Notes under the pieces: model-generated
Told to the model about the DNA's origin: nothing
Databases searched by the model: none
What the model saw: only the letters and a program-made list of their open reading frames with translations
Program-made: the position numbers and the translations under genes
NCBI GenBank assembly: GCA_016196065.1
Contig: JACPYL010000008.1
Span: 310,001-374,000, forward strand
Origin: Acidobacteriota bacterium
GTDB taxonomy: Bacteria > Acidobacteriota > Terriglobia > Terriglobales > Acidobacteriaceae
Length of the DNA stretch: 64,000 bases
Direction of reading: 5' to 3'
Shown: positions 1,508 to 61,084 of the stretch, piece by piece
How positions within the stretch are numbered: the first letter of the stretch is position 1
Layout of the letters: every line of letters starts with the position of its first letter

Positions 1508-4500
1508 ATGATCCGGTCACGTGGATTCACTTTGATAGCGAGTTTGCTCTTGTTGCTGTTGTTGTCCGGCGTCGCTATCGGCCTGATGATGATGGTCACC
1601 ACGGAAGGCAAGGTGGGTGGAGTCGACCTGCAGAACAACGTCGCTTACCACAATGCTGAAGGTGGCATCGAAAAGATGACCTCCGACCTGGCGGCGACCT
1701 TCAAGTCGGTACAGGCCCCGAAACCCAGTGACATATGCGCTCTGAGTTCCCTGCAGCCCACAATCACCGGAGTCACGTGGAAAGACTACCAGGTGCAGCC
1801 GGCGTCAGGATGCTCCGCTCCGCTGTCGAACAATTACGGGCAGATCCAATCCGGACCGAACCAGGGTCTATGGGCACAGATCATCCCGGTCAGCATGCTG
1901 GCGACGGCCGCTCAACCGGGAGGCCAGGAAGTCAGCATGGCGCGCACCGCACAGGTGGCGCTGATTCCGGTATTTCAGTTTGGTGTCTTCTCGGATAGCG
2001 ACCTTGGTTTCTACAGCAGTCCCGATCTGAACTTCGCGGGACGTGTGCACACCAACGGCGATCTGTACGTAGGCGTTTCGAATAGCGCGACGCTGACTTT
2101 CCACGACAAGATCACAGCCTACGGCAACGTGGTTCGCCAGAACCTGCCGAACGGTCTGGCCTCGAGTTCTTACAACAACACGGGGACGGTATTGATCCCG
2201 ACCGCGTCGCAAGGATGCGACGGAACCAAGCCCGCTTGCCGCGCGATCGGACAAAGCGAGGGAAGCGTGACCGGGCTGGGCGGAAACCCGCCTCAGTCAG
2301 GTCAAAATACAGGCTGGCCGAGTATCTCCCTGAGTACATATAACGCGCGCATCATCGACGGGAACTACGGAAACACGGGCGGAACGGGCGCCAAGAATCT
2401 GTCTTTGCCGTTCGTGAACGGCACCACACTCGCGAATGAGATCGTGCGCCGGCCGCCGGCCGGGGAAAATCCTTCGACCGCGTTGGGCGCATCGCGCGAA
2501 TACAATCTGGCGCAGATTCGAGTGTTGATTTCGGACGATCCGGCGGAACTGCCGGGCGGAGCGGGCGATGCCGAGAATGTCCGGCTAGCCAATGTGCCGG
2601 GCAGCAACCAGTTTGGAATTTCGACCTCGTATCCGGGTGGCTTGCCTGGGCTGGCTGCGGGCGCGTCCTACAACACCTACTTCGCGACTGGTTCGACGGC
2701 GATCCCGGATATTTCGACGTGTACGTCTGCTTCACCGGGTGGACCGACTTGTCCGCCGTTGAATACGACTGGCCCAGCGACCGCTTTGTCCTTCGATTGG
2801 CCGCTCGCGCCGGCTGCACCGGGCGCAGGCAACCAGACACTGGTTCCGGCAGGCGCTCCGAATCTGACTGCGGCGGGTGCTCCGGCACCAGTGGTCACAC
2901 TTTGTCCTCCCGGCAACCTCAACGTTGCACCGCCAGTAGGATGCCCGGCTATCAATCCGCCTTATCCATACGACATCACTGCGAACCTGGATAAAGCTGC
3001 TACCTGGAACATGTTGGATGGCTATCTGCGTGTCGAGTACAAAGACACGGCAGGAAACTGGCATCCAGTAACGAACGAATGGCTACGGCTGGGATTTGCG
3101 CGTGGACCCGTTTCGCCCAATGCTCCTGGAGCAAACTCGGTGAATCCCAACGCCATCCTGATCCTGCAGCAACCGGCGGATCGCAATGGCGACGGCGTCA
3201 TCGACCCAGACGGACTGGCTCCGGTCTGCACGAGAACGAACGCCCCGACGGTGCCGACCAAGTGCATTCAATGGAATTATGGACGTCCGCCCGAGGTCAT
3301 CAAGGAGACCCTGAGCACCAGTCCCTATGTCGAACTCACGGCCGGTGGCATCAACACAGGCGTGACGCGCATCAACTGGTATCCGATCAATTTCTACGAT
3401 GCCCGTGAAGGCGAACCGCGCGATACGAACGCCGGCAACAACAGCTGCACTGCGAACGGTGTTATGAACGCGGTGGAACTCGACGTGGGCAACTTGAAGC
3501 GCTGGCTATGGGGAGCGATCGGTGCGAGCGGCCCCAACGTTGATTTTCAGGCGCAGAACGGGTGGGTCCTGTATTTCTCGGACCGGCGCGGAATGTTGCC
3601 CAATCCCAACGCGGCCAACGCGAAGACTGGCGAATCGTTGCTGGAGGATACGGTCAACGCGGGTTCAGCTGCCGGAGCTCCCGACGGCGCCCTGGAAGCA
3701 AAGGCTGCCGGCAAAAAGTGGTCTTCGGAAGACGTCAACCAGAACAACTTGCTGGACGGGTCCGGCGCGCGAAATATCGGACTGGGCTTCTTCAACGGCG
3801 CAACCAATATCAATGGCCAGATCCTGGCGGCGAATCCTGACAACCCATATTCTCCGCGCATCACGAGTTGCAGCACGGCGGGACGCAAGAATTGGGTGAG
3901 CGGTGCGCGCCACGTCCTGAAACTGGTCGACGGATCGCTGGGAAATGTCCCCTTGCGCACCGATAACACCGGAGGCTTCACGGTAGCTGCGGAAAATCCT
4001 GTATACATCCAGGGCGACTACAACTCCCGCGCAGGCGATCCGATTTGGGGTGGTGGCGCCGATCTGGCTGGACACGCCGCAGCAGCGGTCATCGCCGATG
4101 CGGTCACAGTGCTCTCCAACAACTGGTCGGATCGAATCAGCCTGACGGGAACGCCGACGGATGCGTTGACTCGTCCGGCGTCAACGACCTACTACCGCGT
4201 CGCGATTGCGGCTGGAAAGAACATGAACTTCCCGTTCCCCAACTGGGAAAACGGAACGAACTTCGGCACCGGCACCGACGGAGGCGTGCACAACTTCCTG
4301 CGCTTCCTGGAGAGTTGGTCGGGCGTCAACCTGAACTACGAAGGGTCGCTCGTCAGCCTCTACTATGCGACGTACAACACCGGCATCTTCAAGTGCTGTA
4401 CGTACTCGGTGTATCGCCCGCCGGTTCGTAACTACGTATTCGATCCGGACTTTGCAACGCCCACCGGACTGCCGCCCGGAACCCCGTTGTTCCGCGACGT

Positions 4501-4546
4501 CGATACCTTGGGCTATCGGCAGGTGTTTACCACGCGCACTTACTAG
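1508..4546 (+). CDS. PilX N-terminal-type giant prepilin-like protein
   Basis: A ~1012-residue exported protein. The N-terminus MIRSRG|FTLIAS followed by a long Leu-rich helix is a type III (prepilin peptidase) signal, cut after Gly6. The following pattern with the AEGGIEKM block is typical of PilX_N proteins. Position +5 after the cut is Ala rather than the usual Glu of major pilins, as expected for a minor pilin-like protein. Residues ~160-1012 are a Gly/Asn/Pro-rich ectodomain of unknown fold whose last ~400 residues are duplicated in the preceding gene. The ATG at 1508 is preferred to the in-frame ATG at 1496 because AGGGA lies 4 nt upstream, but both are possible. A strong terminator follows at 4568. 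Likely role: minor pilin or adhesive pilus-tip subunit (inference). No other pilus genes lie in the window. Confidence 0.8.
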   Translation: MIRSRGFTLIASLLLLLLLSGVAIGLMMMVTTEGKVGGVDLQNNVAYHNAEGGIEKMTSDLAATFKSVQAPKPSDICALSSLQPTITGVTWKDYQVQPASGCSAPLSNNYGQIQSGPNQGLWAQIIPVSMLATAAQPGGQEVSMARTAQVALIPVFQFGVFSDSDLGFYSSPDLNFAGRVHTNGDLYVGVSNSATLTFHDKITAYGNVVRQNLPNGLASSSYNNTGTVLIPTASQGCDGTKPACRAIGQSEGSVTGLGGNPPQSGQNTGWPSISLSTYNARIIDGNYGNTGGTGAKNLSLPFVNGTTLANEIVRRPPAGENPSTALGASREYNLAQIRVLISDDPAELPGGAGDAENVRLANVPGSNQFGISTSYPGGLPGLAAGASYNTYFATGSTAIPDISTCTSASPGGPTCPPLNTTGPATALSFDWPLAPAAPGAGNQTLVPAGAPNLTAAGAPAPVVTLCPPGNLNVAPPVGCPAINPPYPYDITANLDKAATWNMLDGYLRVEYKDTAGNWHPVTNEWLRLGFARGPVSPNAPGANSVNPNAILILQQPADRNGDGVIDPDGLAPVCTRTNAPTVPTKCIQWNYGRPPEVIKETLSTSPYVELTAGGINTGVTRINWYPINFYDAREGEPRDTNAGNNSCTANGVMNAVELDVGNLKRWLWGAIGASGPNVDFQAQNGWVLYFSDRRGMLPNPNAANAKTGESLLEDTVNAGSAAGAPDGALEAKAAGKKWSSEDVNQNNLLDGSGARNIGLGFFNGATNINGQILAANPDNPYSPRITSCSTAGRKNWVSGARHVLKLVDGSLGNVPLRTDNTGGFTVAAENPVYIQGDYNSRAGDPIWGGGADLAGHAAAAVIADAVTVLSNNWSDRISLTGTPTDALTRPASTTYYRVAIAAGKNMNFPFPNWENGTNFGTGTDGGVHNFLRFLESWSGVNLNYEGSLVSLYYATYNTGIFKCCTYSVYRPPVRNYVFDPDFATPTGLPPGTPLFRDVDTLGYRQVFTTRTY

Positions 4547-27497: not shown

Positions 27498-27650
27498 GTA
27501 GGGCGTGCCCCTGAAACACGTTGCTACAGGGCCGTAGTTTGAAGACCGACCAAAGTGGCTGTGACGGGGGCCACAGACTGCGGCCATTGATTGCCTCATC
27601 GTAGTAACGTCCTCGAAACACATCGTTGCCGCCGCACCCTCAGTTGCCTC

Positions 27651-27736
27651 AGCCGCGTAGCGGCGGCATGCGAAAGCCCGGCACGGCAGTGCCGGGTAGG
27701 CGAGCGGCGGGCACGAGTCCCGCAGGGACGGCACCC
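27651..27736. repeat. Left REP array of the RAYT unit
   Basis: Three nested palindromes (GCCGCGTAGCGGCGGC, CCCGGCACGGCAGTGCCGGG and GTCCCGCAGGGAC) lie immediately upstream of the RAYT ATG. They are the inverted equivalent of the array at 28181-28268. Confidence 0.8.
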
Positions 27737-28180: not shown

Positions 28181-28268
28181 GGGTGCCGTCCCTGGCGGGA
28201 CTTGATCTTTGCTGATGCCTACCCGGCACTACCGTGCCGGGCTTTCACGTTCCGCCGCTTCGCGGCTG
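28181..28268. repeat. Right REP array of the RAYT unit
   Basis: GTCCCTGGCGGGAC, CCCGGCACTACCGTGCCGGG and CCGCCGCTTCGCGGC, arranged as the reverse complement of the left array, directly after the transposase stop. Confidence 0.8.
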
Positions 28269-33598: not shown

Positions 33599-33620
33599 TC
33601 CGCAAAGTTGTTTCTTGTAG

Positions 33621-33702
33621 CTGTCATCCCGAGCGGAGCGAGGGATCTGCAGTCTCCCCTGGGCGAATACCTGCAGATCCCTCGCTCCGCTCGGGATGAC
33701 AG
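33621..33702. repeat. Perfect 32-nt inverted repeat (CTGTCATCCCGAG family, full unit)
   Basis: The left arm starts CTGTCATCCCGAGCGGAGCG at 33621-33652. The right arm at 33671-33702 is its exact 32-nt reverse complement, ending GGGATGACAG. The 18-base spacer is a loop. On RNA it is a very strong hairpin between copy B and purU. Related units are at 60142-60216 (full), 53332-53363 and 55077-55108 (single arms), and 60886 (diverged). Confidence 0.85.
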
Positions 33703-33735
33703 AGCTCTTAGAGCATCGTGGAAATTGGATTATCC

Positions 33736-46411: not shown

Positions 46412-47863
46412 CTAGGCAACCCGCGTGACCAACCCATCGAACGCTTCTGCGTCGACGCGCTCGACACGCGCCCGGATCCACTGATTCGGCTGCCACCGAC
46501 CTGGCACTTTCATCTTCAGATAGTTGTCGGTGAGGGCGTCTGTGAAGTTGTTGTCGCCAGATGCGAGCGTGATTGCGTCCACCATAGCTCCAACCTGCGC
46601 TTCCATGAACGCGGCCTTCTTTGCCGCGGCGATCTGTCGCAGCGTGAGGTTACGCTCGCGCGCGGTTGCGACGGGCACCTGATTCGCGTGTCCGGCGGCT
46701 GGCGTTCCGGGACGCGGAGAATACGTAAACACGTGCAGGTAGGTGAACGGCAGTTCTTCAATCATCCGCTGTGTCTCGGTGAATTCGGGTTCCGTCTCAC
46801 CCGGAAATCCCACCATAACGTCGGCTCCGATAGCGGCATTGGGCATGGCTGCCCGAATCTTCAGAATCTTCTCGCGATAGTGCCACGGCCTGTACTTGCG
46901 GTGCATGCGACGAAGGACCGCATCACTCGCCGACTGTAACGGCACATGCGCATGCTTGGCGATGCGTGAAGAGTTCGCCATCAAATCGATCAATTCGTCG
47001 CTCCAGTCCATCGGCTCGACAGAACTGATGCGGAGTTTCTCCAGCGAGGTCGTCTCCAGAATCGCGCGAATAAGATCAGGCAGTCGTTGGTCGATAGTCG
47101 TTGGTCGTTCGGGGTTGGCCTGACTTGAACAGTCATGAGAAGTCAGGAGAGTCCTGGGATCGGAGTTGCCAACGACGAAGGACGAGCGACCAGCGACGAA
47201 GTCCCTTCCCCACCGTCCCAGATTGATTCCGGAAATTACGACTTCGCGATAACCCGCATTGACCAGGGACCGCACTTCCGCGAGAACGCGATCGAGCGGC
47301 AGCGACCTGCTTTGCCCGCGAACGGACGGGATCACGCAAAACGAACAACGGTTGTCACATCCATCCTGGACCTTGAGGTTGGGCCTGGTGCGCTCGTTGG
47401 CGGCGTCAAAGACCGGGGCCGCCAGCAATTCCGTATGGGCAAAAATATCGCCAACGATGACGTCCGCGCCGATCTGGGATTCGCCTCTGAGCTGGGTAAG
47501 GGAAACAAATCCGCCATTCGATGAGCTCCGCGCCGTCGCGATGTCGGCTGCCAGATGCTTGTGGGAATTGCCGACGACCCAACTCACGCCGGGGATCGCG
47601 GCCAGTTCCTCCGGCGCCCGTTGCGCGTAACAACCAGTGACGAGAATGCGGCACCCGGGATTTTCCCTGCGCACGCGACGGATCGAGGCCCGTGCGTCCT
47701 TGTCCGCGCCCTCGGTGACAGTGCAAGTGTTGAGGACGACTACATCGGCATCGCGCGCTGTGGGAGCGCGTTCCAGCCCACGCTCCAGGAACTGGTTCTC
47801 GAGCGCGGCGCCGTCGGCCTGGGTGGCGCGGCAGCCAAAATTCTCTATGTAGAAGCTGGCCAC
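46412..47863 (-). CDS. MtaB-type tRNA methylthiotransferase with an in-frame repeat insertion
   Basis: 483 residues. UPF0004 domain at 1-~130 (FYIENFGCRATQADGAALEN, LNTCTVTEGADKDARA). Radical SAM core with CxxxCxxC in DGCDNRCSFCVIPSVRG, then GYREVVISGINLGRWGRDF, ISSVEPMDW, and a C-terminal TRAM-like region. It likely makes ms2t6A37 in tRNA (MtaB) using two 4Fe-4S clusters. After GINLGRWGRDF an extra ~40-residue stretch (RSSFVVGNSDPRTLLTSHD onward) corresponds to 47083-47198, a repeat element read in frame. It is divergent from the response-regulator gene. Confidence 0.86.
   Translation of the reverse strand: MASFYIENFGCRATQADGAALENQFLERGLERAPTARDADVVVLNTCTVTEGADKDARASIRRVRRENPGCRILVTGCYAQRAPEELAAIPGVSWVVGNSHKHLAADIATARSSSNGGFVSLTQLRGESQIGADVIVGDIFAHTELLAAPVFDAANERTRPNLKVQDGCDNRCSFCVIPSVRGQSRSLPLDRVLAEVRSLVNAGYREVVISGINLGRWGRDFVAGRSSFVVGNSDPRTLLTSHDCSSQANPERPTTIDQRLPDLIRAILETTSLEKLRISSVEPMDWSDELIDLMANSSRIAKHAHVPLQSASDAVLRRMHRKYRPWHYREKILKIRAAMPNAAIGADVMVGFPGETEPEFTETQRMIEELPFTYLHVFTYSPRPGTPAAGHANQVPVATARERNLTLRQIAAAKKAAFMEAQVGAMVDAITLASGDNNFTDALTDNYLKMKVPGRWQPNQWIRARVERVDAEAFDGLVTRVA
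47083..47198. repeat. In-frame 'CGACCAACGAC' palindromic element inside the methylthiotransferase gene
   Basis: The ends are imperfect inverted repeats of GTCGTTGGTCGATAGTCG (from 47083) and its counterpart CGACGAAGGACGAGCGAC near 47172-47197. Inside, CCTGACTT (47119-47126) pairs with AAGTCAGG (47140-47147). The same kind of sequence occurs intergenically at 61041-61084 before hisS. Confidence 0.7.
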
Positions 47864-53282: not shown

Positions 53283-53331
53283 AATTTCTCTCCTGAACTT
53301 ACAAATTCTCTAACTTGCATTCTGCGGCCAA

Positions 53332-53363
53332 CTGCAGATCCCTCGCTTCGCTCGGGATGACAG
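53332..53363. repeat. CTGTCATCCCGAG-family repeat, single arm
   Basis: CTGCAGATCCCTCGCTTCGC followed by TCGGGATGACAG, one arm of the repeat seen complete at 33621-33702. It lies between the nucleotidyltransferase-like and lemA-family genes. Confidence 0.75.
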
Positions 53364-53409
53364 TTCATTAGGAGTCCTCAATTGGCCAACTGCCACTGCA
53401 GGCCCGCGT

Positions 53410-55002: not shown

Positions 55003-55076
55003 CAAGGATAAATTCTACAGGAATCGAACCGACTGGTTCGGGGACGTCGCAGGGGCGCATCCGTGCCGATTCAACA

Positions 55077-55108
55077 CTGCCGATCCCTCGCTCCGCTCGG
55101 GATGACAG
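55077..55108. repeat. CTGTCATCCCGAG-family repeat, single arm
   Basis: CTGCCGATCCCTCGCTCCGC followed by TCGGGATGACAG, between the PLP-decarboxylase gene end and the TPM gene start. Confidence 0.75.
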
Positions 55109-55134
55109 TATCGATGATTGCAGTCCTACTCCAG

Positions 55135-60082: not shown

Positions 60083-60141
60083 GGCTTTGCATTCTATACC
60101 GGCAGGAGAAACCTCTCCCTCTTTAAGAACCCCCATTGGAA

Positions 60142-60216
60142 CTGTCATCCCAAGCGCAGCGAGGGATCTGCAGTCCGTCGCAAAATGCAGATCCCTCGCT
60201 GCGCTCGGGATGACAG
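60142..60216. repeat. CTGTCATCCCGAG-family inverted repeat, full unit
   Basis: Left arm 60142-60172 (CTGTCATCCCAAGCGCAGCG...) and right arm 60186-60216 (TGCAGATCCCTCGCTGCGCT...) are inverted copies with one mismatch and a 13-base spacer. It lies between the DUF885 gene and the gamma-carbonic anhydrase gene. A short tandem CTGCCTTCTGC run follows at ~60250-60267. Confidence 0.8.
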
Positions 60217-60306
60217 CTGTGTAGAAGAGAACGGCGGTACTCCTGCCATCTGCCTTCTGCCTTCTGCAAGCGCCGCTCCCTTCGTGTTATTTTGACTATT
60301 CACACC

Positions 60307-60950: not shown

Positions 60951-61040
60951 ACGGCTTCCTTCATAGTTAAAAGTTGCAAGGCGTTCTCCCCGTTAGCGGC
61001 TATGAGCACGACGTAACGCCTGGATCGTCCGATCAAGGCG

Positions 61041-61084
61041 CGAACGACGAACAGCGAACGACGAGCGACCAACGACGACCGACC
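61041..61084. repeat. 'CGACCAACGAC' type repeat upstream of hisS
   Basis: CGAACGACGAACAGCGAACG, then ACGAGCGACCAACGACGACC, then GACC, low-complexity and purine-biased, ending ten bases before the hisS ATG. The same wording occurs inside the methylthiotransferase gene (47083-47198). Confidence 0.65.

Follow-up and report, generated by a model that had tools for sequence, protein, structure and literature searches.

Why does the gene for a tRNA-modifying enzyme carry, in frame, a repeat of a kind otherwise found mainly between genes, and what becomes of it there? The question arises in the window, the whole 64,000-nt stretch of Acidobacteriota DNA that was analysed, for which a sequence-only reading had described an intergenic-type palindromic element within a tRNA methylthiotransferase gene. 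Very probably, dispersed and mainly intergenic heptamer repeats recurrently occupy a permissive loop of MtaB, where they are tolerated, and are exchanged by recombination and slippage.

The mtaB gene and its element

The gene, the parts of the element and a second stretch of the same repeat are located as follows.

46412-47863, minus strand: mtaB, tRNA (t6A37-C2)-methylthiotransferase, 483 aa with the insert (TIGR01579; Foldseek top match 9a6d)
47083-47118: arm 1, degenerate (GTCGTTG)n on the plus strand, at the downstream end in the sense of mtaB (7-nt run 47081-47118; inverted repeats)
47119-47167: core between the arms; as such it has no second copy in the genome
47168-47201: arm 2, degenerate (CGACCAA)n, inverted relative to arm 1 (7-nt run 47168-47201; inverted repeats)
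47099-47197, minus strand: net inserted segment of 33 residues, about 223-255 of MtaB, its placement ambiguous by a few residues
61040-61084: second copy of the heptamer wording, a 7-nt periodic run immediately upstream of hisS (hisS starts at about 61094)

By its match to the NCBIfam profile TIGR01579, which scores 381.9 bits against a curated cut-off of 357.05 and is split into two stretches, the ORF at 46412-47863 is MtaB. The best structural match of its AlphaFold model in Foldseek is 9a6d, entitled an integrative model of MTAB-YVFG. Six cysteines (C11, C47, C78, C169, C173 and C176) are invariant in an alignment of 47 sequences, and the cysteines of both Fe-S sites are among them. Of the six frames through the element that of mtaB alone is free of stops, the other five having one or two each. 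The profile match, the sole open frame and the dispersal of the arms (see below) bear out the placement of an intergenic-type repeat within this gene, and the open frame and the cysteines bear out the statement that the frame and the downstream motifs are kept. The earlier estimate of about 40 added residues was too high, since 63 residues separate NLGRWG from EPMD in the MtaB of the window as against 30, a net gain of 33. In a phmmer alignment the match to a solved MiaB is interrupted at the insert (query 218 to 254/258, chain 220 to 225/229), so the solved protein is without it.

The 33-residue loop is in frame and is predicted to be disordered. AlphaFold gives pLDDT values below 50 over residues 227-257, preceded by a strand (block 201-210, mean 88) and followed by a helix (261-270, mean 95). 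Values under 50 also occur at residues 114-118 and 140-156, so that low confidence is not restricted to the insert. The element sits in a loop of the radical-SAM domain, between the strand before GINLGRWGRD and the next helix, and may be tolerated because this loop lies outside the fold. The insert is apparently translated, giving the protein an additional floppy loop that changes fast, with the enzyme not visibly broken.

In the element as a whole (47083-47201), two arrays of degenerate 7-nt repeats, (CGACCAA)n, inverted with respect to each other, flank a unique core of about 49 nt. Terminal inverted repeats of the kind expected in a MITE are present, the arms being 76-81% complementary over 27-33 nt (76% over the 33 nt of 47087-47119 and 47168-47200 or, in an alternative pairing, 81% over the 27 nt of 47083-47109 and 47171-47197). 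Its description as palindromic holds for these inverted arms, but not in the sense of a fixed cassette, the arms being 7-nt tandem repeats and the core variable. A target-site duplication of at least 8 nt, for which the sequence-only reading had proposed a search, was not found flanking the element; a 4-nt coincidence (GACT) was seen.

On the mtaB strand the arms pair in the predicted RNA fold (-43.1 kcal/mol), as would suit a hairpin that pauses ribosomes between domains or stabilizes the mRNA. A role of this kind is most improbable, given that the fold is only modestly better than those of shuffled sequence (z -1.49, with 15 of 200 shuffles as good), that Rfam returns no match for the element at gathering thresholds, and that the mtaB inserts of several relatives (e.g. 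L039, L058 and L088) have no inverted partner arm.

A scan of the window for runs with a 7-nt period finds four, two of them the arms of the mtaB element, and none in one shuffle of the window; at other periods the same scan gives 0 to 4 runs (period 6 also 4), and is not strong evidence by itself. A 7-nt array of (CTGCCTT)n type at 60237-60274 falls outside the heptamer families A-D described below. The window also holds a second dispersed hairpin repeat, CTGTCATCCCGAGCGGAGCGAGGGATCTGCAG, at 33615-33713, 53316-53374, 55076-55109 and 60136-60227, two of the copies being near-perfect inverted pairs. Elsewhere in it, 6-1213 and 3314-4527 are diverged copies of one stretch, about 3.3 kb apart and 73-79% identical in several segments, and 27650-27701 and 28217-28268 form an inverted repeat of 52 nt whose arms, 515 nt apart, are 90% complementary.

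Copies elsewhere in the genome

The 11-mer CGACCAACGAC, taken from the arms, has 64 exact copies in the 5.5-Mb genome while the same letters reversed have 15, so that the similarity of the arms to other sites is not due to chance. A BLAST search of the genome with this region, in which 40 of 57 candidates were scored, lists 29 other matches; all centre on the arms, and none extends more than about 15 nt into the core. The 64 copies cluster into 44 sites, on which the census of copies in genes rests: 29 lie outside called ORFs, many of them within 30 nt of an ORF end, and 15 lie inside ORFs according to a codon-usage gene caller. Three further sites (L015, L022 and L155) overlap an ORF end. The same wording had been reported before hisS, and the heptamer array at 61040-61084 is indeed found just upstream of that gene; the HisS profile match starts at residue 43 of the ORF. 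In a second pass both arms were recognized at 20 of 43 sites, always with (TTGGTCG)n followed by (CGACCAA)n and never reversed. The spacing of these 20 pairs ranges from 7 to 95 nt, exceeds 20 nt in 17 of them, and is 56 nt at mtaB.

The proposed search for other copies inside genes yields, on reading of the 15 sites, three convincing internal in-frame copies: mtaB, mnmG (L151) and a homologue of Lgt (L143). Five others (L146, L148, L153, L159 and L160) are single 11-mers in ordinary coding sequence, probably there by chance, and seven (L002, L007, L009, L014, L141, L144 and L163) are upstream, N-terminal or ambiguous. The mnmG gene (L151:983-3100) has an in-frame insert with wording of the mtaB type (family A below), and also reads wording of the second hairpin repeat in frame (SHPDRSEG). 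The Lgt homologue (L143:922-1692), which is divergent and below the NCBIfam cut-off, carries a single heptamer arm in frame in a loop; it has a match in 9 of 37 genomes, and the only good homologue aligned, 54% identical, has a gap where the repeat stands.

Inverted arms of fixed polarity, together with six Y1_Tnp matches in the genome, could suggest that a Y1/RAYT transposase mobilizes the repeat as a classical non-autonomous element (a MITE or REPIN) and that mtaB is one of its insertions; intragenic REPs and tyrosine transposases are reported, also for Koribacter (PMC3733652). We consider this unlikely. No 7-nt array or 11-mer lies within about 1.5 kb of any of the six Y1_Tnp matches, the core is not common to the copies, a target-site duplication of at least 8 nt was not found, and the number of units in an arm varies as in tandem repeats. 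Neither transposition machinery nor a target-site duplication was found for the element, and we infer its route of arrival. If dispersed repeats recurrently occupy the loop, copies would arrive or be exchanged by ectopic recombination or copying between them, slippage of the 7-nt units would alter the inserts, and events that break the frame or bring in stops would be purged by selection.

The mtaB loop among relatives

The loop was compared in the best 80 of 590 public relatives, which include Candidatus Sulfotelmatobacter and Acidobacteriaceae bacterium SbA1, and in 61 related genomes, a sample in which close relatives are over-represented. Among 137 loci, 6 had no ORF and 11 no match to the anchors (8 of these with a short loop), leaving 120 measured and, after removal of 9 duplicates, 111 distinct homologues. 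The distance from NLGRWG to EPMD is 30-31 residues in 57 of these, 32-36 in 12 and at least 37 in 42. The insertion is visible in comparison with homologues, the check that had been proposed, and the view that an in-frame repeat creates a new protein segment is supported in that most homologues outside the clade are without the insert. Nor do the homologues share one segment with conserved residues, which had been named as grounds for rejecting the idea: insert residues are not conserved and the insert peptides differ among species.

Within the genus, represented by 24 genomes, all 19 homologues measured have an insert at the site, of +12 to +47 residues; the genomes outside the 19 are G005, G015, G020 (orthologue not found), G021 and G022 (fragments). 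When read by hand, the mtaB of G015 proves to have a family A insert, the only one in a gene among 19 distinct A-sites examined in that genome (30 of 51 matches fetched). Several neighbouring lineages also have an insert. In a quick maximum-likelihood core tree the 19 same-genus rows form one clade with support of 99, while on the whole tree the insert label needs 9 changes, at least 3 of them forced by well-supported branches. From this distribution the filling of the site is dated to the ancestor of the genus or earlier, and it probably happened more than once in neighbouring lineages. The insert found in the window is real, but the idea of a single insertion does not stand, other genomes of the genus being filled too, with repeat families that differ by species.

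Close relatives may differ sharply at the site. L036 and L044 are 92.5% identical in the core over 843 nt and have inserts of 48 nt (mostly family B) and 126 nt (A-type), and L038 and L043, with 88.1% identity in the core, have inserts of 39 and 90 nt. Inserts are also inherited, because some pairs share alignable ones (L036/L047, 98%; L042/L044, 85%; L075/L096, 89%). Comparison of the species shows that, after the ancestral filling, the site was filled anew, its inserts grew and one heptamer family gave way to another. Short GC-rich palindromes of GGGCGGGCGCCCTCGCCCGCC type, perhaps another repeat family, stand at the same site in L068, L076 and L078.

The inserts are built of heptamers. Pooled, the mtaB inserts show a self-identity of 0.512 at lag 7, 0.454 at lag 14 and 0.382 at lag 21, as against about 0.262-0.263 when shuffled (z = 34.7 at lag 7); a downstream part of the same genes has 0.241 at lag 7. 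Four families were read from them: A (CGACCAA), B (TCAGCTC), C (GACCTCG) and D (CCGGCTT). With up to 2 mismatches in 16, a family is recognized in 29 of 42 inserts and in none of 315 control windows or 57 uninserted genes; with up to 3 the counts are 33, 2 and 0, nine inserts remaining without a call. The threshold was at first 4, and was later tightened to 3 and 2; at 4 mismatches the call is not specific (36/42 inserts, 15/315 control windows, 11/57 uninserted genes). Because the families were defined on these very inserts, independent evidence comes from the lag test and the genome counts. The loop does vary slightly in unrelated lineages (the 12 of 111 with 32-36 residues), and this, with the unspecific call at 4 mismatches, might be held to favour a resemblance to intergenic repeats that is accidental, or due to low complexity, in a loop that normally varies. 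That reading is refuted by the controls at 2 mismatches and by the lag-7 test, which needs no family definition, and we give it next to no credence.

Genome counts cover families A, B and D. A and B are scattered through most genomes of the genus, the reversed control for B being unclean in a few (e.g. 41 in G023 and 36 in G030). An 18-nt pattern of family A is present in 26 of the 61 related genomes, all within the family to which the genome of the window belongs, and its reversed control in 1 of 61. Family D is near the control level in most of the 61; three genomes with a D-type mtaB insert have 21, 62 and 12 matches (reversed control 0, 25 and 0), as against 2, 1 and 2 in three genomes with a C-type insert. 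The repeat family in mtaB tends, on these counts, to match that of its genome. Exceptions are G064 (L081), with a short D-type insert and no D matches, and G014, with an insert and no exact A 18-mer. Abundance of a repeat is not sufficient for an insert, because G037, G058 and G059 are rich in B (139, 81 and 256 matches) and their mtaB loop is not expanded.

Family A is free of stops in all six frames, and so are 50% of all heptamers; this permits the insertions and does not explain their tolerance. Family B is free of stops in one orientation only, and in mtaB that orientation prevails by 10 to 0 at up to 2 mismatches and by 16 to 1 at up to 3. The opposite orientation of B occurs in mnmG (L203 and L204). 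For mnmG 30 loci were fetched (L198-L227), one of them unreadable, and the loop after QAEVADVI contains inserts that are built of repeats and differ by lineage, drawn from families A, B and D, with one from C. The heptamer class is recognized in 15 of the 29 readable genes and in 0 of 232 control windows, and lag-7 identity is 0.449 against 0.232. A second loop of mtaB, at residues of about 110-135, has a different hairpin repeat (TTTCGCAAAGAACGCGAAAGAGTGGGGCACCC type) in relatives, with two copies by eye in each of L046 and L060; a strict pattern for it occurs in 17 of 61 genomes, and the reversed control in none.

The differences at codon positions 1:2:3 in eight partly overlapping pairs with alignable inserts number 28:41:41 within the inserts, compared with 153:99:497 for the flanking core (Fisher p of about 1e-8 for positions 1+2 versus 3, indicative only). 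Because the codon positions change evenly, we infer that the peptide encoded by the insert has little or no function. A functional hypervariable loop, selected to diversify and perhaps tuning the contact with tRNA, would fit the occurrence of such loops in two tRNA-modification enzymes (MtaB and MnmG) of one lineage and their rapid turnover between some close relatives. It is nevertheless very unlikely, since the even ratio is that of neutral drift, the loop is predicted to be disordered, the inserts consist of heptamers whose families A and B, and also D in 3 of the 4 genomes tested, occur scattered through the same genomes, and the unrelated Lgt homologue also bears an arm. With recurrent occupation by dispersed repeats, the loop would instead be a tolerated, nearly neutral and disordered one, conserved in nothing but its reading frame and its freedom from stops.

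A possible if doubtful extension is that a few loops of core enzymes (two in MtaB, one in MnmG) act as standing landing pads for the dispersed repeats of the lineage, into which the currently active family is written. Related species would then have different disordered segments in their tRNA-modifying enzymes, and a repeat-driven, heritable swapping of loops would act on the translation apparatus.

Relation to known repeat systems

Rickettsia and scattered intragenic REPs supply the best-known cases of repeats inserted in frame; the heptanucleotide repeats of cyanobacteria go by the name STRR. The locus adds an apparent bacterial example of junk DNA becoming protein, in a soil lineage where one site can be traced through empty, filled and swapped states in dozens of species, so that the question of whether such insertions are tolerated or useful becomes directly testable. 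It is also a warning that a variable protein loop in this lineage need not be an evolved domain and may consist of repeat DNA. In the parts of the literature on Acidobacteria or Sulfotelmatobacter that were available the element was not found; PMC3733652 comes nearest, mentioning inverted repeats next to tyrosine transposases in Koribacter.

Rickettsia palindromic elements (RPEs), as far as the available part of the source describes them, are palindromic, about 150 bp long and in frame in many ordinary genes, where they add extra peptide segments; the encoded peptide is conserved among copies integrated in unrelated genes (PMC10969869). The mtaB element is likewise a palindromic repeat in frame inside a gene. 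It differs from what is described there in that its arms are 7-nt tandem units, its core is not shared, and one loop is held by several families across species; rather than a conserved peptide, the copies have in common the arms, on which the genome matches centre.

GTAG and CGTC REPs are mostly intergenic palindromes near gene ends, some being intragenic, including in genes for tRNA synthetase and tRNA pseudouridine synthase, and the recB genes of two Xanthomonas species have different REPs at about the same site (available part of PMC3733652). In being mainly intergenic and near gene ends, with some copies in genes, the repeats described here resemble them. REP loops, in the same account, are short (4-5 nt for CGTC, 2-20 nt for GTAG) and accompanied by a tetranucleotide tag, whereas the arms here are heptamer arrays 7-95 nt apart, more than 20 nt at 17 of the 20 paired sites, with no RAYT-type gene nearby and no association at any of the six Y1_Tnp matches.

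For Xanthomonas, Nostoc and other cyanobacteria, and Beggiatoaceae, PMC4692102 and PMC4679880 describe scattered tandem repeats of 7 nt that lie mostly between genes and close to gene ends. The period of 7 nt is the same here (lag-7 identity of 0.512 in 42 inserts, 0.262 when shuffled). The known repeats are, in those accounts, direct arrays, whereas many of those described here are inverted pairs of fixed polarity that persist in conserved genes. Set against these sources, the general phenomenon is already known from RPEs and intragenic REPs; what is new is the heptamer build, the fixed polarity of the arms and the recurrent filling of the same loops in two tRNA-modification enzymes.
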